Source of the DNA: Actinomycetes bacterium
Lineage (GTDB): Bacteria > Actinomycetota > Acidimicrobiia > Acidimicrobiales > RAAP-2
Length of the DNA: 33,628 nt
Direction of reading: 5' to 3'
NCBI GenBank assembly: GCA_021799615.1
Contig: JAJZAC010000020.1
Location: forward strand, 1-33,628
Both the position numbers and the translations under genes were made by a program. Below the pieces are notes generated by a model that worked only from the letters and a program-made list of their open reading frames with translations, was not told the DNA's origin and did not search any database. Below are positions 7,829-33,628 of the stretch, one piece after another (position 1 is the first letter of the stretch; every line of letters begins with the position of its first letter).

Positions 7829-9366
7829 TCGCCGTCCACGTTCTGGTTGGGGCCGGCCGTATCCGAGTATTGGGTGAGCCAGATGCCGCCGGTGGGCAGC
7901 GAGACGCCGTGGGTCGCTGCGTAGCTGTACGCGGAGGTGCAGTTGCCGGCGGGATCGCCTGTGTACCACGCGAGCCACACGGGGAACGGCGGGTTGTAGG
8001 CGGAACCGGCGATGGGCGTCCAATTCAGTTCGGAGGCATAGATGCCGACAGTGGTGACGCCCTCGTGGACGAGGGCGTCGTGCGCGCCCTGGATGGTGGC
8101 GTCGTTCAGCGCGGTGGACGCCTGCCAGTAGACCCCGGGCCCTTCGACGTCGAGCCACCATGCGACCGAGGTGTTCACTCCTGCCGCACCCGCCTTTGTG
8201 AACGCATCCGCAGCCGCGTTGTAGCCCCACTGGTAGCAGGTGGAGGTCGAGGTGCACGACGGTATGTCCGACTGGACGTTGGCGAGGAACACGTACATGT
8301 TGAGCCCACCTCCGGCCCAGGCCGCTTCGGTGGCGAGGCACGGGTTCTCACTGAACGGGGCACCGGCTGCCTCGACGATGGCAATGGTGTGCGGGGGCGG
8401 TGGAAGGGACCCGGTGCAGCCCGGTCCCAGCTGCCAGTCGGAGATGTCGTAGCCGTAGGACCCGTTCTGATAGGCCGGGTCATGGCTGACGCCGGTCCCG
8501 GGGGCCTGGGCGATCGCCACGACTGGTCCCGGAGCTCCGTTCGGGTCGGATCCGAAGTAGCCCGCGTCGCCGAAATTGAGGACGAGTCCGGCGGAGTCGG
8601 CCATCCAGTACCCCCTTCCGTCGGGGGTGGCGGCAATGCCGATCACGCCGAGAGGAGGGGGGGTGACCGCGCCCGATCCGTAGAAGACGGCATCGCCGAA
8701 GTTGAAGACGCCGCCGTCGGAGGCGACCAGCCAGTACCCCCTGCCGTCGGGGGTGGCGGCCATGCCGACCACCGGCTGGACGAGATGGCGCCCGCCCATC
8801 GAGCCGTAGAAGCGGGCGTCGCCGAAGGAGAAGATGCCGCCGTCGGAGGCCACCAGCCAGTACCCCCCGTCGTCGGGGGTGGCGGCCATGCCGACCACCG
8901 GTTGGTTGAGGTGGTACGCCCCCGTCGACCCGTGGAACGGGGCGTCGAAGGAGAAGACGCCGCCGTCGGAGGCCACCAGCCAGTAGCCGCCCGTGGCCAG
9001 GTCGGCCGCCATGCCCACCACGGGTCTGTTGAGCGTGTGACCACCCGTCGAACCGTGGAAGGCGGCGTCGCCGAAGGAGAACACCCCGCCGTCGGACGCC
9101 ACCATCCAGAACCCGCCGCCGCCGCGTGTCGTCGCCTCGCCCACCACCGGCTCGTTGAGACTCCCCGACAGCTCGCCGTAGCCGCCCGCACCGCCGAACC
9201 CTTGGACGATCCCGCTGGCCGTCACCAGCCGATAGGCGGGGACGGTGGTGGTGGCGGCGGACGACGCATGCGGCGCCGGTGCCAGGAGTAGGCCGAGGAA
9301 GCTCAACAAAACCACAATCCGCGCGAGGAATCCAGAAACGGGGCCACCGTGCGTGAACATCCTCAT
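7816..9366 (-). CDS. Secreted DGGVFSFGDA-repeat protein with GH25-like lysozyme domain
   Basis: The 516-residue exported protein starts MRMFTHGGPVSGFLARIVVL; a hydrophobic core and an Ala-rich site near residue 37 mark a signal peptide. Residues about 45-290 are six repeats of about 41 residues with consensus GYWLVASDGGVFSFGDA, then F-GS and PVVGMAATPDG; the first and last are degenerate. This pattern suggests a beta-propeller. Residues about 300-516 look like a divergent glycoside hydrolase 25 (lysozyme-like) domain: GYDISDWQ, WLDVEGPG (candidate acidic pair D-x-E), VGIYASELNW, VWLAWYT, and IWLTQYSDT ending in NVDGDYAC. Cysteines near the end suggest disulfides. Likely role is cell-wall binding or cleavage outside the cell; this is inferred from motifs. 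It sits 53 bp behind aroG on the same strand. ATG 9358-9360 is an alternative start. Confidence 0.8.
   Translation of the reverse strand: MRMFTHGGPVSGFLARIVVLLSFLGLLLAPAPHASSAATTTVPAYRLVTASGIVQGFGGAGGYGELSGSLNEPVVGEATTRGGGGFWMVASDGGVFSFGDAAFHGSTGGHTLNRPVVGMAADLATGGYWLVASDGGVFSFDAPFHGSTGAYHLNQPVVGMAATPDDGGYWLVASDGGIFSFGDARFYGSMGGRHLVQPVVGMAATPDGRGYWLVASDGGVFNFGDAVFYGSGAVTPPPLGVIGIAATPDGRGYWMADSAGLVLNFGDAGYFGSDPNGAPGPVVAIAQAPGTGVSHDPAYQNGSYGYDISDWQLGPGCTGSLPPPPHTIAIVEAAGAPFSENPCLATEAAWAGGGLNMYVFLANVQSDIPSCTSTSTCYQWGYNAAADAFTKAGAAGVNTSVAWWLDVEGPGVYWQASTALNDATIQGAHDALVHEGVTTVGIYASELNWTPIAGSAYNPPFPVWLAWYTGDPAGNCTSAYSYAATHGVSLPTGGIWLTQYSDTAGPNQNVDGDYAC
8496..9234 (-). repeat. Six imperfect ~123-bp repeats encoding the propeller-like domain
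   Basis: The DNA shows a periodic motif around CCGCCGTCGGAGGCCACCAG about every 120-126 bp, corresponding to the VASDGGVF core of each protein repeat. The central copies are most alike at the DNA level, suggesting recent duplication or gene conversion among them. Confidence 0.75.
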
Positions 9367-13137: not shown

Positions 13138-13160
13138 CCGCCGGACCGCCGTCCGGTCAG
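13134..13160. terminator. Shared hairpin between convergent rsfS and lpqB-like genes
   Basis: CTGACC (13134-13139) is complementary to GGTCAG (13155-13160), and CCGGAC (13141-13146) to GTCCGG (13151-13156), giving a strong hairpin with small alternatives. It covers both stop codons (rsfS TGA at 13135-13137; lpqB-like stop at 13157-13159 on the other strand). No T-run is present, so it would be a GC-only bidirectional terminator. Confidence 0.5.
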
Positions 13161-13792
13161 GGTGCCGGTGGTGCCTGGGCCGTGTAGTCGGCCCGCCCGA
13201 CGGGACCGCTGACCAGCCCTCCCGTGCCGTTGGGGACCTGGGTCGGGGTGCCGCCGATCCGGAAGGCGACGGCGGACACCCCTGGCAGCGCGGTGGCGGT
13301 GAACACCACCTGGGCGATGGCGAGGATCTGGTCGGGCCCGACGACCTGCACGGGGTTGGCGCTGAAGTCGACGTCGGCGGTCCCGGCGGCGACGGTCGCG
13401 GTGACCTGGATGCCCGGGCCCGAGAGGAAGCTCTGGATGCCAGCGGTGGACTCCGACTCGGTGGGCCCCTCGAGGAGCGCCCCGAGCACCTGGGTCAGGG
13501 TGGCCGGCACCGCCAGGTCGCGCCGGACCGGCGTCACATGCTGGTCCGGCGCGACCAGGAAGATCGTCTCGGGGACGGACACGGCGGGCATGGTGGTCGT
13601 GGTGGTGGGCGGCGGGGTGCGGAGGAGGCCGAAGGGCACCTGGTCGCGGGGGATCGGGTGGGGGGAGGCGTCGGTCGGGATCCCACAACCGGCACCGGCC
13701 ATGACGACCACGGCCAGCACGACAGCCAGTCCCCAGCGCACCGGCGTCGGCCGGTCCGGCGTCGTGTGCCGGCGCACCTCGGCCCGGATCAT
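13157..13792 (-). CDS. LpqB-like lipoprotein with GerMN domain only
   Basis: The 211-residue predicted lipoprotein has a basic N-terminus, a hydrophobic stretch GLAVVLAVVVMAGAGC and a candidate lipidated Cys36 (lipobox not ideal). A Pro/Thr-rich spacer is followed by a GerMN domain (about 73-195): VPETIFLVAPDQHVTPVRR, LGALLEGPTESESTAGI, ADVDFSANPVQVVG and LPGVSAVAFRIGGTP. Position as third gene after mtrA and mtrB is the place of lpqB, whose product modulates MtrB sensing. Mycobacterial LpqB is much longer (about 580 residues, with a propeller-like C-terminal half); this protein stops right after GerMN. Its ATG overlaps the mtrB stop by 4 bp. Alternatively it is an unrelated GerMN lipoprotein, but the synteny argues for LpqB. 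Confidence 0.82.
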   Translation of the reverse strand: MIRAEVRRHTTPDRPTPVRWGLAVVLAVVVMAGAGCGIPTDASPHPIPRDQVPFGLLRTPPPTTTTTMPAVSVPETIFLVAPDQHVTPVRRDLAVPATLTQVLGALLEGPTESESTAGIQSFLSGPGIQVTATVAAGTADVDFSANPVQVVGPDQILAIAQVVFTATALPGVSAVAFRIGGTPTQVPNGTGGLVSGPVGRADYTAQAPPAP

Positions 13793-22481: not shown

Positions 22482-23051
22482 ATGGACGACGAGCTGACCG
22501 CCCTCGTGGTGGCAGAGACCCGCGACCGCATGGCGAAGGCGGTCGACCACACGCAGTCGGAGTTCGGTTCGGTGCGGACGGGTCGTGCCACCCCGGCATT
22601 GGTGGAACACCTGAAGGTGGACTACTACGGCGCCGAGACGGAGTTGCGTCAGCTGGCAGGGTTCAGCGTGCCCGAAGCGCGGCTCCTCGTGATCTCGCCG
22701 TACGACAAGGGCGCGGTCGGTGCCATCGAGAAGGCTCTGCAGGGTTCCGACCTCGGCATCCAACCCTCGAACGACGGGACCGTGATCCGGCTGTCGTTCC
22801 CCGTGCCCACGGAGGAGCGTAGGAAGGAACTGGTCAAGGTGGTCCGCCAGAAGGCGGAGGACGGCCGGGTGGCCGTCCGCAACCTCCGCCGTTCTGCTCG
22901 TCACGAGCTCGAGGGCCTCCAGCGGGACGGCGAGCTGTCGGGGGACGCGCTCGAGCGCGTGGAGAAGGAGCTGGACCGGCTCACCCAGGAGCAGGTGGCC
23001 GCCATCGACCGCCTGCTTGCGCACAAGGAGCAGGAGCTCCTCGAGATCTGA
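22482..23051 (+). CDS. frr: Ribosome recycling factor
   Basis: Splits post-termination ribosomes together with EF-G. The 189-residue protein matches the family's length and motifs: RMAKAVDHTQSEFGSVRTGRATPALVEHLKVDYYG near 15, VPEARLLVISPYDKGAVGAIEKALQGSDLGIQPSNDG, VIRLSFPVPTEERRKELVK, and the long helical domain VRNLRRSARHELEGL. It has a GGAGG site 4 nt before the ATG. Its TGA shares one base with the cdsA ATG (TGATG), so cdsA translation is probably coupled. Confidence 0.97.
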   Translation: MDDELTALVVAETRDRMAKAVDHTQSEFGSVRTGRATPALVEHLKVDYYGAETELRQLAGFSVPEARLLVISPYDKGAVGAIEKALQGSDLGIQPSNDGTVIRLSFPVPTEERRKELVKVVRQKAEDGRVAVRNLRRSARHELEGLQRDGELSGDALERVEKELDRLTQEQVAAIDRLLAHKEQELLEI

Positions 23052-24964
23052 TGCCGGCTCGCGCATCGCGGGTCGGCACCGAGGGAAGCGACGTGGACGT
23101 GGACGACCGGGACGACCGGCAAGAGGTTGATCGTGCGGGAGCCGGTGGGGCGGCCCACGCTGCCCCCGGAGCCCCGGGCGGTCAGCGCCGGGTCCGCATC
23201 CTTGGCGCCGAAGTGGCCGGCGAGGCGACGGCGGTGGTACCGGCGGTGCGGCGCGATGACGAGCAGGACCTCCCCGGTTCCGTGGTGCCCGTCGACACCG
23301 ACGAGCCCGACGTGGCGGTACGCCATCCCCACGACGAGGCCGCCGGCAACGTGGAGGAACCGCTCCGGCCCGGTGAGACGGCAATGCCGCACTGGACGGA
23401 GCCGCCGACCGGCGCGGTGCCCGCCGTCCTGGCCCGAGAGGAGCGGGACGTCCCCGAGTTCGCCGCTCCCACCTGGCGCGAGGAGCGCTCCGACTGGCGG
23501 GCCCACGACGAGGAGTTCGACACCTCGCTGTTCAGCGACGAAGAGGCGCCCGTCGGTTCACTCGACGAGTCCGAAGCCCCCGACCTGGAGCGCCGGCCCT
23601 GGGAGTTCGACCTGGACGAGACATCGGCGCCCTCCGGGGCCCCGACCGGCGGGAGGGGCGCCGTGGACGCGTCGCCGGTCCCTGGCGAGGGGCCGGCGTG
23701 GGCCGAGGCACCGGCGGACGAACGGGCCACCGCCCCGACCTGGTTCGACCCTGACGAGCCCCCCGAACTGGCCGGAGACACGCCGCCCTATGGCGGGGAC
23801 GACGTGAAGGTGCCGCACGAGGCGCAGGAGCCGCCGGTCCAGGTCGGGCGGCGGGGGTCCACCCGCCGGATCCGTGCCCGCCGCCCGAAGGGTGCGGTGG
23901 CGGGTGCAGCCGCGCCTCTCGCCGCCTCGCCGCCCGGAGCGGCGGTGACCGAGGTTCCCGGTGTCGGCATCGGACGTGGCGGTGTGGCCGATCTCGCTTC
24001 GGCCGACGAAGGTCCGGCTCGTGCCGGCCGGCGTCGGGGTGGGCCGGCCCGCAGCCGCCGACCGGCCGGTCCCGCCGACCGGTCGCCCGGTGGCGGCCCG
24101 CCAGCCGGGACGGCGTCCCGACCCCGCGACGCCCGGCCGGCCGGGCGCGAGCCGGGCATCGCCGTACGGATCGTCACCGGCGTGGGGGTGGCCGTCGTTG
24201 CCCTGGTGCTCTTCGGCCTGGGGACGGTGACGTCGCTCCTCCTGGCGCTGTTCGTCGTCACCTTCGCCGCCGGTGAGTTGTTCGGCGTGCTCCGCCGGGT
24301 GGGGTACCACCCGGCGACCCTGCTCGGCCTGGTGGGGACCGTCTCGCTCATGGTGGCGGGCTACGAGCGCGGGATCGGCGCCCTCCCACTGGTCATGGTG
24401 CTGATCAGCGTGTTCTCGATGCTGTGGTACCTGTTCGGGATCGAGCGGGGCCGGCCGGTCGCCGGCGTGGCAGCGACCCTGCTCGCCACCGGTTGGGTGG
24501 GGCTCCTCGGGGCCTTCGCCGGCGTCCTCCTCTCGCCGTCCACCTTTCCGGACCGCCACGGGATCGCCTTCCTCCTGGGGGCGATCGTGGCCACCGTCGG
24601 TAACGACGTGGGAGGGCTGGTCGGCGGAGGGTTCTTCGGGCGCCATCCGCTCGCCCCGTCCGTCAGCCCCAACAAGACGTGGGAGGGCCTGGTCGGGGGC
24701 ATGGTCCTGTCCGTCGTCCTCTCCGCCGTCGTCACGGGGTCCATCCACCCGTGGACCCCGTCCAAAGCCGCGCTGCTCGGGGTGGTGGTGGCGGTCGTCG
24801 CCCCACTCGGCGATCTCAGCGAGTCCCTGCTCAAGCGGGACCTGGGCCTGAAGGACATGGGAACGCTCCTCCCGGGCCACGGCGGGGTCCTCGACCGCAT
24901 CGACGCCATGCTCTTCGTGCTGCCCGCCACCTACTACGTGGTCCGCGCCCTGAATCTCGGGTGA
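23051..24964 (+). CDS. cdsA: Phosphatidate cytidylyltransferase with long N-terminal extension
   Basis: Makes CDP-diacylglycerol from phosphatidate and CTP in the membrane, the branch point for phospholipids. Of 637 residues, only about 370-637 form the enzyme: several membrane helices (GIAVRIVTGVGVAVVALVLF onwards), the VGNDVGGLVGGGFFG segment, SPNKTWEG, and the family signature from SLLKRDLGLKDMGTL to PGHGGVLDRID. Residues 1 to about 370 are hydrophilic, acidic then Pro/Arg-rich, without cysteines or obvious domain (for example VDVDDRDDRQEVDRAG near the start and a basic stretch RAGRRRGGPARSRRPAG just before the first helix). The ATG overlaps the frr stop. Typical CdsA is about 250-300 residues. 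The extension may be a cytoplasmic scaffold; its role is unknown. dxr starts 20 bp downstream. Confidence 0.93.
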   Translation: MPARASRVGTEGSDVDVDDRDDRQEVDRAGAGGAAHAAPGAPGGQRRVRILGAEVAGEATAVVPAVRRDDEQDLPGSVVPVDTDEPDVAVRHPHDEAAGNVEEPLRPGETAMPHWTEPPTGAVPAVLAREERDVPEFAAPTWREERSDWRAHDEEFDTSLFSDEEAPVGSLDESEAPDLERRPWEFDLDETSAPSGAPTGGRGAVDASPVPGEGPAWAEAPADERATAPTWFDPDEPPELAGDTPPYGGDDVKVPHEAQEPPVQVGRRGSTRRIRARRPKGAVAGAAAPLAASPPGAAVTEVPGVGIGRGGVADLASADEGPARAGRRRGGPARSRRPAGPADRSPGGGPPAGTASRPRDARPAGREPGIAVRIVTGVGVAVVALVLFGLGTVTSLLLALFVVTFAAGELFGVLRRVGYHPATLLGLVGTVSLMVAGYERGIGALPLVMVLISVFSMLWYLFGIERGRPVAGVAATLLATGWVGLLGAFAGVLLSPSTFPDRHGIAFLLGAIVATVGNDVGGLVGGGFFGRHPLAPSVSPNKTWEGLVGGMVLSVVLSAVVTGSIHPWTPSKAALLGVVVAVVAPLGDLSESLLKRDLGLKDMGTLLPGHGGVLDRIDAMLFVLPATYYVVRALNLG

Positions 24965-28820: not shown

Positions 28821-30545
28821 ATGCGCATGTCCCGGTTGCTGCTCCGAACCCTCCGTGAGGCGCCGGCCGATGCCGAGGTGGCCAGCCACCGGTTGCTGGT
28901 TCGAGCCGGCTACATCCGGCGCCTGGCATCGGGGGTCTACACGTTCCTGCCGCTCGGTGTCCGGGTCCTCCACCGCATCGAGCGGATCATCCGTGAGGAG
29001 CTGGACGGCGCCGGTTGCCAGGAGGTCCTGCTGCCCGCGCTGCATCCCTTCGAGCTGTGGGAGGAGAGCGGTCGTGCAGCCCTGTTCGGCAGCGATGCCC
29101 TCCCGGCGCTGGTGGTCGAGGGGCGCGGAGGGCGGTTCGTCCTCGGGCCGACCCACGAGGAGGTGGTGACGGCCACGCTGGCCGCCGAGGTGGACTCGTA
29201 CCGCCAGCTTCCCCAGACCGTCTACCAGATCCAGACGAAGTTCCGCGACGAGGCCCGGCCCCGTTTCGGGCTGCTGCGCACCCGAGAGCTCATCATGGCC
29301 GACGCCTACTCGTTCGACGTGGACTCGGCGGCGATGCAGGGCACCTACGACGGTATCTACCAGGCCTATCTGCGCATCTTCGGGCGCCTCGGCCTGGACG
29401 TGACCCCGGTCGAGGCCAGCTCGGGTGCGATCGGAGGCGAGGTCAACCACGAGTTCATGGTGCCGTCCCCGGTGGGCGAGGACCACTTCGTGCGCTGCCC
29501 GGCCTGCGGGTACGCGGCCAACGTGGAGGCCGCCGTCCGGCAGGTCGTGGACGCGGGTGGACAGTCCGACGGTGCGCCGCCCGCCCTCGAGCTCCACCAC
29601 ACCCCGGATCGGCCGGGGATCGACGCGGTGGCCGAGCAGTTCTCGTCGCGGGGCGTGACCGCCGCCGACCTGCTGAAGTGCCTGGCCGTGGTGGACGGCG
29701 ACGGCCGTGCCCGTCTGGTCGTCCTCCCCGGCGATCGCGACGCCCGGCTTCCCGGCGGTTGGCGACTGTTCGAGGACGCCGACTTCGCCGCCCATCCCTC
29801 CCTGGTCAAGGGGTATATCGGACCCGATGCGGCCAACGGCGCGGGGATCCCGGTGGTGGCCGACGTCGGGGTCCGGGCGCCTCGGGTGGGTGGGTGGATC
29901 ACCGGGGCCAACCGCCCTGACCACCACGTGTCCGGGGCCGTCCTCGACCGCGACTTCACGGTGGACGAGTGGGGCTCGTACGCGGTGGTCGTCGAGGGGG
30001 ACGCCTGCCCCCGGTGCGCTGCCCCGCTCGACCTGGTGCGCAGTGTCGAGGCTGCCCACACGTTCCAGTTGGGGACGAAGTACTCGGGCGTCATGTCCGG
30101 CGCGACGTTCGTCGACGAGGCCGGGGACGAGGTGCCCTTCTGCATGGGGTGCTACGGCATGGGGGTCAGCCGGCTGGTGGCCGTGATGGCCGAGGCGTTC
30201 CACGACGACGCCGGGCTGACGTGGCCGGCCGCCATCGCGCCGTTCGCCGTCCACCTCGTGCCCCTGGGGGCCGGCCGCGTCGTCGAGGTGGCCGACGCTG
30301 CCGACACCCTGTACCAGGAGCTCGTCGCACGGGGTGTCGAGGTCCTGGTGGACGACCGGCAGGCCTCACCCGGGGTGTCCCTGGCCGACGCCGACCTCCT
30401 CGGGATCCCGGTGCGGGTCGTGGTCGGGGCCAAGGGCCTCGCACGGGGGGTCGTCGAGGTGTCGCGGCGGGACGGCTCGTCCCCCCAGGAGGACGTACCG
30501 GTGGCGGAGGCGGCGGGCGTGATCGCAGCGCTGGTCGGCGCCTGA
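28821..30545 (+). CDS. proS: Prolyl-tRNA synthetase, bacterial type with editing insert
   Basis: Charges tRNA-Pro. The 574-residue protein has the class II core: LLRTLREAPADAEVASHRLLVRAGYIRR at the N-terminus, motif 1 around RVLHRIERIIREELDGAGCQEVLLP, motif 2 RPRFGLLRTRELIMADAYSFD (about 151-171), and motif 3 GCYGMGVSRLVAVMAE (about 443-458). An insert of about 240-400 between motifs 2 and 3 corresponds to the YbaK-type editing domain that removes mischarged Ala (for example DLLKCLAVVDGDGRARLVVLPGDRD). The anticodon-binding domain occupies about 470-574. This is the long bacterial form, not the eukaryote-like one. It has its own leaderless-type promoter and ends before a strong hairpin. Confidence 0.97.
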   Translation: MRMSRLLLRTLREAPADAEVASHRLLVRAGYIRRLASGVYTFLPLGVRVLHRIERIIREELDGAGCQEVLLPALHPFELWEESGRAALFGSDALPALVVEGRGGRFVLGPTHEEVVTATLAAEVDSYRQLPQTVYQIQTKFRDEARPRFGLLRTRELIMADAYSFDVDSAAMQGTYDGIYQAYLRIFGRLGLDVTPVEASSGAIGGEVNHEFMVPSPVGEDHFVRCPACGYAANVEAAVRQVVDAGGQSDGAPPALELHHTPDRPGIDAVAEQFSSRGVTAADLLKCLAVVDGDGRARLVVLPGDRDARLPGGWRLFEDADFAAHPSLVKGYIGPDAANGAGIPVVADVGVRAPRVGGWITGANRPDHHVSGAVLDRDFTVDEWGSYAVVVEGDACPRCAAPLDLVRSVEAAHTFQLGTKYSGVMSGATFVDEAGDEVPFCMGCYGMGVSRLVAVMAEAFHDDAGLTWPAAIAPFAVHLVPLGAGRVVEVADAADTLYQELVARGVEVLVDDRQASPGVSLADADLLGIPVRVVVGAKGLARGVVEVSRRDGSSPQEDVPVAEAAGVIAALVGA

Positions 30546-30550
30546 GGGAT

Positions 30551-30573
30551 CGCCGGCCGGCACCGGGCCGGCG
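30551..30573. terminator. Hairpin after proS
   Basis: CGCCGGCC (30551-30558) and GGCCGGCG (30566-30573) form a perfect 8 bp GC stem with a 7 nt loop, starting 6 nt after the proS stop. No T-run follows. It is followed at once by the rimP promoter, so it probably separates the two transcription units. Confidence 0.5.
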
Positions 30574-30591
30574 GGACCGTCAGCGACCTGC

Positions 30592-30600
30592 TGGTATACT
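30592..30600 (+). promoter_or_regulatory. Extended -10 promoter of rimP-nusA-infB
   Basis: TGG followed by TATACT (30595-30600) is an extended -10 element and the most AT-rich stretch for several kilobases. No good -35 is seen. A start near 30607 would give an about 116 nt leader before rimP. Confidence 0.6.
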
Positions 30601-30636
30601 TGGTTGTTCCGTTCTCGGAGTGAAGATGCGCTGGAG

Positions 30637-30661
30637 GAGCGTGGGCGGAATGCCCACGCTC
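30637..30661 (+). promoter_or_regulatory. rimP-nusA leader hairpin
   Basis: GAGCGTGGGC (30637-30646) and GCCCACGCTC (30652-30661) form a perfect 10 bp stem with loop GGAAT, followed by TTGTCTTCCTC. It lies about 30 nt into the predicted leader. From memory, hairpins of the form GAGxGGGC...GCCCxCTC precede rimP in other bacteria too. A transcription attenuation or autoregulation role through NusA is plausible but inferred. Confidence 0.6.
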
Positions 30662-30722
30662 TTGTCTTCCTCGGCGCTCCGAGGACGGGAGAGGCCATCA
30701 CGACCGGAGAGGAGGGAACGAC

Positions 30723-31250
30723 ATGGCGGAAGATCTCTACTCGCAGCTGGCGCCGGTCGTTGCCGCCCAGGGACTGGAGCTCTTCGACGTCGAGGTGCGC
30801 CCCGGGTTCGTCGTCGTGTCGGTCGACCGCCCCGGCGGGGTCGACCTGGACGAGCTGGCCCAGGCCAACCGGGTGGTGTCTGCCTATCTGGACGAGCATG
30901 ACCCCGTTCCCGGCCGGTACACCCTCGAAGTGTCGAGTCCCGGGGTGGAGCGGCAGCTGCGGCGCCCCGAGCATTTCGCACGGGCCGTCGGCCAGACGGT
31001 CCAGGTGAAGACCCGTCCCGGCACCGGCGAGGTCCGACGGGCCACCGGTGTGCTGTCCGCCTCCGACGACGTCGGGTTCGTCGTCACCGAGGGCGAGGGG
31101 CCCGACGGCGCCCCCCTCCAGACCCGGTTCGCCTACGCCGACGTCGACCGGGTCCGGACCGTGTTCACCTGGGGACCCGGTCCCAAGCCCGGCGCCGCCG
31201 AGCGGCGCTCCACGCCCACGCCGAAGAGGAAGCAGGTCACGACCAGATGA
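30723..31250 (+). CDS. rimP: Ribosome maturation factor RimP
   Basis: Needed for 30S maturation. The 175-residue protein starts MAEDLYSQLAPVVAAQGLELFDVEV; the N-terminal domain includes GFVVVSVDRPGGVDLDELAQANRVVSAYLDEHDPVPGRYTLEVSSPGVERQLRRPEHFARAVGQ, with the hallmark LEVSSPGVERxL motif near residue 70. The C-terminal SH3-like domain is about 90-150, followed by a basic tail. The ribosome binding site GGAGGG (30711-30716) is 6 nt before the ATG. The stop overlaps the nusA ATG (ATGA), and rimP-nusA-ylxR-infB is a near-universal order. Confidence 0.96.
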   Translation: MAEDLYSQLAPVVAAQGLELFDVEVRPGFVVVSVDRPGGVDLDELAQANRVVSAYLDEHDPVPGRYTLEVSSPGVERQLRRPEHFARAVGQTVQVKTRPGTGEVRRATGVLSASDDVGFVVTEGEGPDGAPLQTRFAYADVDRVRTVFTWGPGPKPGAAERRSTPTPKRKQVTTR

Positions 31251-32581
31251 GCAAGACGAACTTCGAGTTCTTCGACGCCCTCGGCCAGATCGCACGCGAC
31301 AAGGGCATCTCCGTGGAGACGCTCCTGGACGCGCTGGCCAATGCCCTGGTGGCAGCGTACAAGCGGAGTCCGGACTCGGCCGAGGAGGCGGTCGTCACCA
31401 TCGACCCCGAGTCGGGGGAGATCCGCGTCTACGGCCAGGAGCTCGACGAGGAGGGCAACGTCATCCGCGAGTGGGACGACACGCCCGAGGACTTCGGCCG
31501 GATCGCTGCCCAGACGGCCAAGCAGGTCATCCTCCAGCGGATCCGGGAGGTCGAGCGCGACCTGAAGTACGAAGAGTACGCAGGTCGCGAGGGTGACATC
31601 GTGACGGGGATCGTCCAGCAGACGGACAACCGCTACACCCTGCTCGACCTGGGCAAGGTCGAAGCGCTGCTGCCCCAGGCGGAGCAGGTGTCCTACGAGC
31701 GCTACGAGCACGGTGCCCGGCTGAAGGCCTACATCGTCGAGGTGCGCAAGACGACCAAGGGACCGCAGATCGTGGTGAGCCGGAGCCATCCGGGCCTGAT
31801 CAAGCGCCTCTTCGAGTTGGAGGTCCCCGAGATCTCGTCGGGTGCGGTGGAGATCAAGGCGGCGGCGCGCGAGCCGGGCCACCGCACCAAGATCGCCGTG
31901 TGGTCGAACGACCCGAACATCGACCCCGTCGGCGCGTGCGTCGGGGCACGGGGGTCGCGCGTCCGCATGGTCACCAACGAGCTCCGTGGCGAACGGGTCG
32001 ACGTCGTGCCGTTCTCGGACGATCCGGTCGAGCTGATCCAGAGCGCGCTCGCACCCGCACGGGTGCGCGAGGTGCGCCTGGACGACCAGACGGGGACGGC
32101 CACCGTGGTGGTGAGCGACTACCAGCTGTCCCTGGCCATCGGCAAAGAGGGGCAGAACGCCCGCCTGGCTGCCCGGCTGACCGGGTGGCGCATCGACATC
32201 AAGAGCGAGACCCAGTTGGCCGAGGAAGAGGCCGGCTACCAGGGCGAGGAGTGGGCCGAGGGCGAATGGGTCCAGAACGAGGCCGGTGAGATGGTGTGGC
32301 AGCCGGCCGAGGGCGGCGCCGCCGTTTCAGCCACCGAGTGGACGCAGGCGGTCACGGACGACACCGGTGGTGCCGAAGCTGACGGTGCGGGTGCGGCCGG
32401 TGCGGCTGACGGTGCCGAAGCCGGCGGAGCCGGAGCTGACGGTGCGGAAGCCGGCGGTGCGGAAGCCGGCGGAGCCGGAGCCGGCGGAGCCGGAGCTGAC
32501 GGTGCGGAAGCCGGCGGAGCCGAGGTTGTCACCTCCGAGGCGACCGGCGAGCCTGCAGCGGCGACGGAGGGAGAGGCATAG
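31247..32581 (+). CDS. nusA: Transcription factor NusA
   Basis: Modulates pausing, termination and antitermination of RNA polymerase. In 444 residues: N-terminal polymerase-binding domain (1 to about 115, [40 protein letters not shown]), S1 domain (about 120-190, [29 protein letters not shown]), KH1 and KH2 (about 195-325, [66 protein letters not shown]). After about 325 there is an acidic segment and then a tail of Gly/Ala/Glu/Asp repeats. Actinobacterial NusA usually ends near residue 330-350, so the about 100-residue tail is an addition. The start overlaps the rimP stop. Confidence 0.96.
32419..32517 (+). repeat. 39-bp direct repeat in the nusA 3' end
   Basis: An identical 39 bp sequence is found at 32419-32457 and 32479-32517, exactly 60 bp apart, within a longer array of GCCGGCGGAGCC-type units. 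It encodes the [13 protein letters not shown] tail and keeps frame. Confidence 0.85.
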
Positions 32582-32586
32582 TCCCG

Positions 32587-32907
32587 ATGAGGACCTGCGT
32601 CGGCTGTCGGCGCAGGTCCCCGGTGGCCGGGCTGCTGAGGGTGGGGCGTCTCCCGGGCGGACGGCTCACGCTGGACCGCGCTGCTCCGGGGCGGGGAGCA
32701 TGGGTGTGCCCGGATCCGGCGTGCGTGGCCGTCGCTGGCCGGCGCCGGGGGTTCGAGCGGGCATTCCGGGCGCCGGTGGAGCCCGGTGACGTGGACAGGA
32801 TCGAGGAAGCGACCCGCCGGAGCGGGGGACGTGTCCCGATGTGCGAGGATGGAGACCCGCGTCCGGACCCAGTTCCGGTCGCGACCGAGGAACAGGAAGG
32901 CCAGTAG
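32587..32907 (+). CDS. ylxR: YlxR-family (DUF448) RNA-binding protein
   Basis: Small 106-residue protein of the nusA-infB operon. The conserved N-terminal motif is MRTCVGCRRRSPVAGLLRV (usually RTCIxCRx), followed by RAAPGRGAWVCPDPACVAVAGRRRGFERAFRAPV. The four cysteines (two in CVGC, two in CPDPAC) could bind a metal, though many family members lack this. The last about 25 residues are polar and unconserved. Family members bind nucleic acid and have been linked to transcription regulation; the exact role is unsettled. It starts 5 bp after nusA and ends 6 bp before infB, so it is clearly operonic. Confidence 0.92.
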   Translation: MRTCVGCRRRSPVAGLLRVGRLPGGRLTLDRAAPGRGAWVCPDPACVAVAGRRRGFERAFRAPVEPGDVDRIEEATRRSGGRVPMCEDGDPRPDPVPVATEEQEGQ

Positions 32908-32913
32908 AAGCCG

Positions 32914-33628
32914 TTGCCGAAGAAGATCCGCGTCTATGAGCTCGCCCACGAGCTCGGTCTGACCAACAAGGAAGCGCTCGACCTGTGCCTGTCGTTGGGC
33001 ATGGGGGTGAAGAGCCACTCGTCCTCCATCGAGGACGCCCAGGCCGACCGCGCCCGGCGCAAGGCGGATCGTGAGGGGCTGCGCCGGGAGGTGCAGCCGC
33101 CCGAGGAGGCACCGGCGAAGAAGGCGGCCGCCAAGAAGGCACCGGCGAAGAAGGCGGCAGCGTCGAAGGTCGGCGCCCCGTCGGCTCCGGGCGAGCAGGC
33201 CGTCGAGTCAGGCCCTACCGACGACGGGGGGGAGCCCGCCCCGGCTCGCCGCGCCCCGCGCCTCATCACCAGCCGTACGGTCCACGAGCCGGCCCGCCCG
33301 CCCGCAGCTCCTGCGCCGACGCCCCAGGTGGCACCGGCAGCGGCAGCTCCGATGCCGACAGCTCCTGCGCCGACGGCGCCGACGGCGCCGGCTCCGATCT
33401 CCCCCGCGGCGGCAGCTCCTGCGCCGGCACCTCAACCGCCAGCGGCCCCGCCAGCGGCCCCGCCGGTGGCACCCGCAGCGGCTGCGCCCGCAGCGGCCCC
33501 GCCGGTGGCACCCGCACCGCCAGCAGCTCCGGCCGCCGCAGTGCCCGCACCGCCAACAGCTCCGGCCCCGACACCGGCAGCCCCGACCAACGCAGCCCCG
33601 ACCGGCCCTGCCACCGCTGCCGCACCGC
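32914..33628 (+). CDS. infB: Translation initiation factor IF-2, N-terminal part (runs off window)
   Basis: The frame from TTG 32914 stays open to the window end (238 codons). Translation begins (L)PKKIRVYELAHELGLTNKEAL, the conserved IF2 N-terminal helix domain (residues 1 to about 55, with LGMGVKSHSSSIED). A Lys/Ala segment follows (KKAAAKKAPAKKAAASK), then a very long Ala/Pro-rich linker up to the edge. The GTPase domain must lie beyond 33628. Start choice: no in-frame ATG or GTG lies near the stop of ylxR and TTG aligns with the family's first residue, with AGGAAGG at 32894-32900 somewhat far (13 nt) and GAAG at 32907-32910 close by. The order rimP-nusA-ylxR-infB supports the call. Confidence 0.92.
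   Translation, partial: MPKKIRVYELAHELGLTNKEALDLCLSLGMGVKSHSSSIEDAQADRARRKADREGLRREVQPPEEAPAKKAAAKKAPAKKAAASKVGAPSAPGEQAVESGPTDDGGEPAPARRAPRLITSRTVHEPARPPAAPAPTPQVAPAAAAPMPTAPAPTAPTAPAPISPAAAAPAPAPQPPAAPPAAPPVAPAAAAPAAAPPVAPAPPAAPAAAVPAPPTAPAPTPAAPTNAAPTGPATAAAP
33340..33620 (+). repeat. Low-complexity Ala/Pro-coding region of infB
   Basis: Repeats of GCAGCTCC, GCGGCCCCG and CCGGTGGCACCCGCA units (for example CCGCCGGTGGCACCCGCA at 33459 and 33498) encode the Ala/Pro linker. Such linkers vary in length between close relatives. Confidence 0.7.

Follow-up and report, generated by a model that had tools for sequence, protein, structure and literature searches.

A general rimP-leader in Acidimicrobiia: a conserved terminator hairpin and its probable role in NusA-dependent attenuation

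Introduction

The general rimP-leader was described as a terminator with a GGGc...gCCC stem and a U tract, which is found 5' of rimP-nusA-infB at 4-130 nt from the gene (Naville and Gautheret, 2010, Genome Biol 11:R97, Fig. 2b; PMC2965389). According to the accessible parts of that paper, the terminator is accompanied neither by a larger conserved element nor by a visible antiterminator, and the motif is absent at other terminators. NusA is named there as the best candidate regulator, with RimP also mentioned as possible. For several Gammaproteobacteria, an extra upstream terminator and a potential antiterminator are reported in addition (PMC2965389). Neither Acidimicrobiia nor hairpins preceding nusA in genomes devoid of rimP appear in the consulted portions of the 2010 description.

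Two related leaders are backed by RNA evidence, as far as the consulted passages of the sources tell. In Streptococcus agalactiae, transcription of the rimP operon stops 31 nt past its start at a predicted intrinsic terminator (PMC4448216), and NusA feedback is proposed. In Bacillus subtilis, NusA is reported to be autoregulated via termination in the leader (Mondal, 2016, as cited in PMC12288461). A literature search that reached few subscription papers returned, among the matches listed, no paper on a rimP leader in Acidimicrobiia, and none was obtained for a nusA leader.

The following sections concentrate on the leader of a rimP-nusA-ylxR-infB operon from an Acidimicrobiales genome, located on a stretch of 33,628 nt (contig JAJZAC010000020.1), hereafter the window. 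Like the leaders of B. subtilis and S. agalactiae, it carries an intrinsic terminator upstream of rimP/nusA, in this case predicted from the sequence. An attenuator at this position is expected biology. Of wider interest are the extension of the general rimP-leader to Acidimicrobiia, where it is supported by covariation and can now be searched for with a model, and its presence in front of nusA in genomes where RimP is not detected.

The operon and its promoter

The promoter element, the leader, and the operon genes all lie on the + strand. The operon encompasses rimP (30723..31250; Pfam RimP_N, 5.6e-18, and RimP C-terminal SH3 domain, 4.4e-8), nusA, which encodes the proposed regulator (31247..32581; KH_5, 5.5e-29; NusA_N, 3.7e-24; S1, 2.3e-6), ylxR (32587..32907; YlxR, 3.7e-20), and the 5' part of infB (32914..33627; IF2_N, 1.1e-10), whose open reading frame leaves the window. 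A Shine-Dalgarno sequence, AGGAGG, precedes rimP at 30710..30715. The gene 5' of the operon ends with a stop at 30545 and codes for a class II core with editing and anticodon-binding domains; we take it to be proS. Between this stop and the promoter, a second intergenic hairpin without a U tract is found at 30550-30574 (GCCGGCC...GGCCGGC, -24.5 kcal/mol).

The original prediction, made from the letters of this DNA, had postulated an extended -10 element followed by a structured leader of about 116 nt, and both were recovered. The element, TGGTATACT, occupies 30592..30600 and is present in a single copy on the + strand and in none on the - strand of the window. A consensus scanner gave no -35/-10 pair within 30300-31000, and the -10 is therefore regarded as lacking a recognisable -35. 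With the start put 7 nt past the -10, the predicted leader extends over 30607..30722, i.e. 116 nt from the putative start at 30607 to the rimP ATG at 30723. For 30603-30725, the fold energy is -62.8 kcal/mol compared with -46.0 kcal/mol for shuffles (z -4.7), none of 200 shuffles being as good; together with the Pfam assignments this agrees with the earlier reading as a structured leader of rimP-nusA-infB.

The promoter arrangement recurs in relatives. Among 55 genomes (own included), the -10-like hexamer, picked by best score, is separated from the stem described below by a median of 38 nt, with 31-47 nt in 51 of them, and a TGn extension accompanies it in 37.

Anatomy of the leader hairpin

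The perfect 10-bp hairpin with an adjoining pyrimidine-rich stretch, also anticipated from the sequence, is located at 30637-30661 and reads GAGCGTGGGC-GGAAT-GCCCACGCTC, followed by TTGTCTTCCTC. Its 5' arm (30637..30646) contains the core GCGUGGGC at 30639-30646, its 3' arm (30652..30661) the core GCCCACGC at 30652-30659, and both arms belong to the covarying helix described below. Past the core, a U/C tract, TCTTGTCTTCCTC (30660..30672), is less uniform than the consensus of the relatives, UUUUGUUUUG. It comprises 6 U in the first 10 nt, compared with a median of 7 in the 55 genomes, 25 of which show 6 or fewer. A standard terminator pattern does not match the window's hairpin, and the tail is C-rich. 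The putative start is followed by about 30 nt, then by the GC stem, the U tract, a spacer, and the Shine-Dalgarno sequence, an anatomy that corresponds to that of an early intrinsic terminator.

The hairpin stretch alone folds at -24.4 kcal/mol (shuffles -13.5 kcal/mol; z -3.8). The intergenic hairpin at 30550-30574 has an equal fold energy and lies nearer to its own shuffles (z -2.2). Perfect 10-bp hairpins with loops of 3-8 nt occur four times in the window; two are situated within the ORF 23051-24964, and one, at 8056, where long frames are open on both strands. Among the hairpins met, that at 13513-13559 is the strongest (-43.9 kcal/mol, z -8.3); it is contained in the - strand ORF 13157-13792 and is therefore probably coding. 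The leader, which the original prediction had ranked as the strongest non-coding structure of the window, has a hairpin less stable than this one and is set apart by conservation, not by stability.

In comparison with the general rimP-leader, the window is alike in operon context, in the stem, where GUGGGC/GCCCAC represents the GGGc(...)gCCC motif, in the gap to the rimP start (63 nt from the core, 61 nt from the 10-bp stem), in specificity, and in that neither a general antiterminator nor a larger conserved element was seen. It differs in a core extended to GCGUGGGC/GCCCACGC and in an interrupted U tract: the U stretch is clear in the consensus of the relatives, whereas the window's tract is mixed. 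Gene context, the motif of the stem, the spacing, and the specificity together assign the leader to the general rimP-leader. A comparison with known rimP leaders, which had been proposed with the original prediction, was accordingly positive for this published element, as far as the consulted parts of PMC2965389 describe it, and negative for the Rfam family RF01770.

The latter, a rimP leader of Gammaproteobacteria, is associated with the same gene and the same proposed role. Membership in RF01770 was rejected, since its model matched neither the window nor, at E<=1, any of 21 genomes. Scanning the window against Rfam, at the gathering threshold and at E<=5, gave only sub-threshold matches to unrelated families.

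Conservation and covariation

RimP was matched in 55 of the 61 genomes searched (own included), and each of these 55 carries a hairpin 5' of rimP with a GCGUGGGC-like stem closing on GCCCACGC. The hairpins were located by a core search; at four loci (L040, L041, L051, and L052), an automatic best-hairpin pick had landed on a different hairpin or on a variant. A strict rule that includes the U tract accepted 46 of the 55, compared with a mean of 0.1 for shuffles and 0 on the opposite strand. U occupies the first three positions past the core in 44, 45, and 50 of the 55. Within the 11-bp helix, 97.4% of the cells are paired, and two-sided changes are seen in 6 of the 11 pairs (30 cells).

A covariance model, R1, was built from these 55 rows. 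It finds 30635-30671 in the own genome at E 9.6e-7, the window being one of the training rows. When applied to another 80 loci (the best 80 of 581, whose titles are mostly Acidimicrobiales, Acidimicrobiia, Actinomycetes, and Actinomycetota, with a few others, e.g. Bifidobacterium breve and Acidobacteria), R1 matched the + strand of 70. Eight of these were training rows and were left out of the covariation set. In the remaining 62 rows, which were chosen by R1 itself and are not fully independent because some loci are close to training genomes, 9 of the 11 pairs changed on both sides (45 cells), a result reached by 0 of 500 shuffles. The original prediction had suggested such a covariance comparison of rimP upstream regions and had named a lack of compensatory changes as one half of what would speak against it; this half fails, as compensatory changes are abundant.

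Eight of the ten loci missed by R1 display variant hairpins by eye, in several of which the changes in the stem are compensated, e.g. GGCGUGGCC/GGCCACGCC (L208) and GGCACGGGU/ACCCGUGCC (L209). In the named locus L189, with full upstream sequence, no hairpin was seen by eye, and L193 offers only 191 low-complexity bases upstream. By these sequence comparisons the leader hairpin is not a product of chance, and a conserved RNA structure at 30637-30661 is well supported; the mechanism discussed below is a proposed one.

The hairpin is also specific for this site. In the own genome, the sole matches of R1 at E<=1 are the leader hairpin, on both its strands, and a second site, as would be expected of a regulon, was not found there at this threshold. 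With stricter filters, R1 at E<=1 matched 59 of the 61 genomes. The extra matches in the other 60 genomes mostly have E values of 0.01-1, as expected by chance per genome; two stronger off-site matches (G051:C17 and G001:C10) are positioned just 3' of ORFs and not in leaders. One genome without a RimP match, G034, shows the hairpin 5' of a rimP start that is cut by the contig end.

Distribution across the phylum

R1, which is tuned to the window's order, gave matches at E<=0.1, at any genomic position, in 50 of 198 genomes of the phylum, and RimP_N was found in 162 of the 198. A broader view was obtained from 51 hand-chosen rimP upstream regions from 47 families, two from the window's order and four from its class (L103 is counted although a contig end limits it to 85 bases; L144, genome G250, represents family f72). 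A G[UC]GGG hairpin with a U tract is present in 37 of these 51 (shuffle mean 0.2; opposite strand 1). Outside the window's order, a common form is GAAGUGGGC-loop-GCCCACUU followed by U. Twenty further regions were inspected; most of them were chosen from families missed at the first look, and the count of 37 of 51 was therefore left unchanged.

In the 51 and 20 regions taken together, the core hairpin is absent from all inspected members of f49 (7/7), f54 (5/5), f61 (2/2), and f40 (6/6), and from the single members of f39 and f58. In the regions of f49 (L112, L229-L234) and f54 (L116, L141, L235-L237), the 220 nt ahead of the RimP domain are also free of any terminator-like hairpin; the genomes of both families measure 5-10 Mb, and the leader seems to have been lost in these large-genome lineages. 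In f32 (4/4; L099, L243, L244, L245), an inverted terminator-like hairpin, AGCCCCUC...GAGGGGCU, replaces GGGC...GCCC 5' of rimP, and in f42 (3/3; L107, L246, L247) another hairpin with a U run, GUUGCUUUUUUA, takes this place. A comparison of lineages that keep, invert, or lose the stem makes it testable what preserves the stem sequence of a terminator and whether this sequence is read by NusA.

Hairpins preceding nusA in genomes without detected RimP

A set of 25 genomes without detected RimP was assembled from 20 of the 36 phylum genomes lacking RimP_N (E<=0.001) and from G009, G032, G044, G046, and G056. These genomes are mostly drafts, in which a diverged rimP elsewhere may be missed. A nusA match was obtained in 22 (all except G009, G117, and G159), and 19 upstream regions were usable after G032 as well as G046 and G092, which are without upstream sequence, had also been left out. 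Linkage to nusA itself, as looked for in a leader autoregulated by NusA, was found in 10 of these 19: under a fixed rule, the core hairpin and U tract both lie no more than 120 nt from nusA. Shuffles satisfied this rule in 0.08 genomes on average and in 1 at most, and the opposite strand did so in 2. In the ten positives, which come from families f9, f21, f33, f35, and f47, with six of the ten from f35, the hairpin stands 24-40 nt 5' of nusA and leaves no room for rimP.

The clearest cases are G044 and G056 (92 and 94% complete), from two families of the window's order. RimP_N was not detected in either at E<=1, and in both the hairpin is positioned 29 nt 5' of nusA (core end to start) with a -10-like TATACT ahead of it. 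In three of the other nine genomes, about 500-550 nt separate the hairpin from nusA, and the ORF of 143-180 aa found in this interval may be a diverged rimP. In two (f53), the distance is 116 and 219 nt without a long ORF, and four show no hairpin by the rule, G141 among them looking positive by eye.

Since the hairpin directly precedes nusA in genomes without detected RimP, the element appears to follow nusA and not rimP, a linkage that infB, as a remaining part of the operon, shares. To judge from the literature consulted, this arrangement is new. It bears on the point left open in the 2010 paper, i.e. whether NusA or RimP is the regulator, and strengthens the case for NusA.

Proposed mechanism and alternatives

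Most probably (we would estimate roughly 0.78), the leader attenuates transcription in the manner of the general rimP-leader, by an early intrinsic terminator through which NusA limits its own operon. RNA polymerase would start from the extended -10. The GC-rich hairpin would be complete once about 55 nt have been transcribed and, followed by the imperfect U tract, could serve as an intrinsic terminator. A share of the transcripts would end there, and the remainder would read on into rimP-nusA-ylxR-infB. If termination depends on polymerase-bound NusA, a rise in NusA would shift the balance towards early termination and lower the amount of operon mRNA, forming a negative feedback loop. We infer where transcription starts, that it terminates in the leader, that this depends on NusA, and in which direction the feedback acts; the NusA dependence in this organism is presumed by analogy with other phyla and from gene linkage. 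Points that weigh against this account are the C-rich tail, the miss by the standard terminator pattern, and the families of the phylum, along with locus L189, in which the hairpin is absent.

The same terminator might be set by another regulator, such as RimP, IF2, or NusG, or partial termination might be constitutive and determine the output. This is unlikely in our estimate, albeit the best placed of the alternatives. The hairpin and its tail may suffice for intrinsic termination, a NusA-specific element was not found in the leader, and RimP is named as a possible regulator in the consulted part of PMC2965389. RimP is rendered improbable by the hairpins preceding nusA where RimP is not detected, and the portions of the literature consulted report, for E. 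coli and B. subtilis, that NusA feeds back on this operon.

The 5' end of the leader (30603-30616) could instead pair with the Shine-Dalgarno region (30705-30720), hiding the rimP start and forming a translational switch. This pairing is part of the minimum-energy fold of the window's leader, its own duplex amounts to -25.6 kcal/mol, and in the own family matched partners pair better than permuted ones (p 0.03, n 31). Over all 50 leaders compared (5 of 55, without a safe start codon, were left out), p rises to 0.07, and within two subgroups it is 0.13 and 0.23. Moreover, a pyrimidine-rich 5' end matches nearly any Shine-Dalgarno sequence, and we consider such a switch improbable.

Still less can be said for a termination/antitermination switch, in which an alternative hairpin of the window's subgroup, ACGCU-N5/6-AGCGU, would capture the 5' arm. 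A consensus fold of 11 subgroup leaders from which the 3' arm was removed does yield the ACGCU/AGCGU hairpin, and the mean arm pairing of the subgroup is 0.70 compared with 0.55 for shuffles, with L001, L002, and L010 at or above the 90% level. The competitor, however, leaves the GGGC/GCCC core unpaired. Over 53 leaders in four hand-made groups (L026 and L042, with little sequence 5' of the stem, were left out), the share of shuffles that equal or surpass the real leader has a median of 0.32, 0.65, 0.68, and 0.45; the 5' arm thus pairs upstream no more than shuffles do, and no general antiterminator was found in these 53 leaders. Its absence agrees with the published view of protein-set termination, most likely by NusA, as given in the accessible part of PMC2965389. 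An upstream ORF or leader peptide controlling the operon, starting with an ATG at 30626 after GGAG, is barely credible, since the ATG with a plausible ribosome site occurs in L001 and L002 and has no counterpart at this alignment column in the other nine subgroup members, and its frame overlaps rimP out of frame up to 30901.

The NusA-dependent attenuator may be extended further, and this we propose only tentatively and hold to be rather doubtful as a whole: the "rimP-leader" could in fact be a nusA leader whose stem is more than a terminator. Its near-invariant core, G-rich on the 5' and C-rich on the 3' side, would be recognised in a sequence-specific manner by the NusA-polymerase complex. 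It would stay with nusA when rimP is missing, and lineages with rewired control would have lost it, reversed it (AGCCCCUC...GAGGGGCU), or replaced it. A further role of the stem is conceivable because a plain terminator needs no invariant stem core. If this holds true, lineages with a lost, reversed, or replaced stem would serve as natural experiments on what NusA reads.

Further observations

A GUCC stretch near the putative start is conserved in most of subgroup B (the L011-L022 members and L025) and in L024, L031, L034, L040, L044, L052, and L054. A weak pairing of this stretch with (U/C)GGGC of the terminator arm is conceivable, for which shuffles give no support. Within f54, one of the families devoid of the core hairpin, the region of L116 contains AACTCAAGAT near the rimP start, which we presume to resemble the RNA bound by the KH domains of Mycobacterium tuberculosis NusA.
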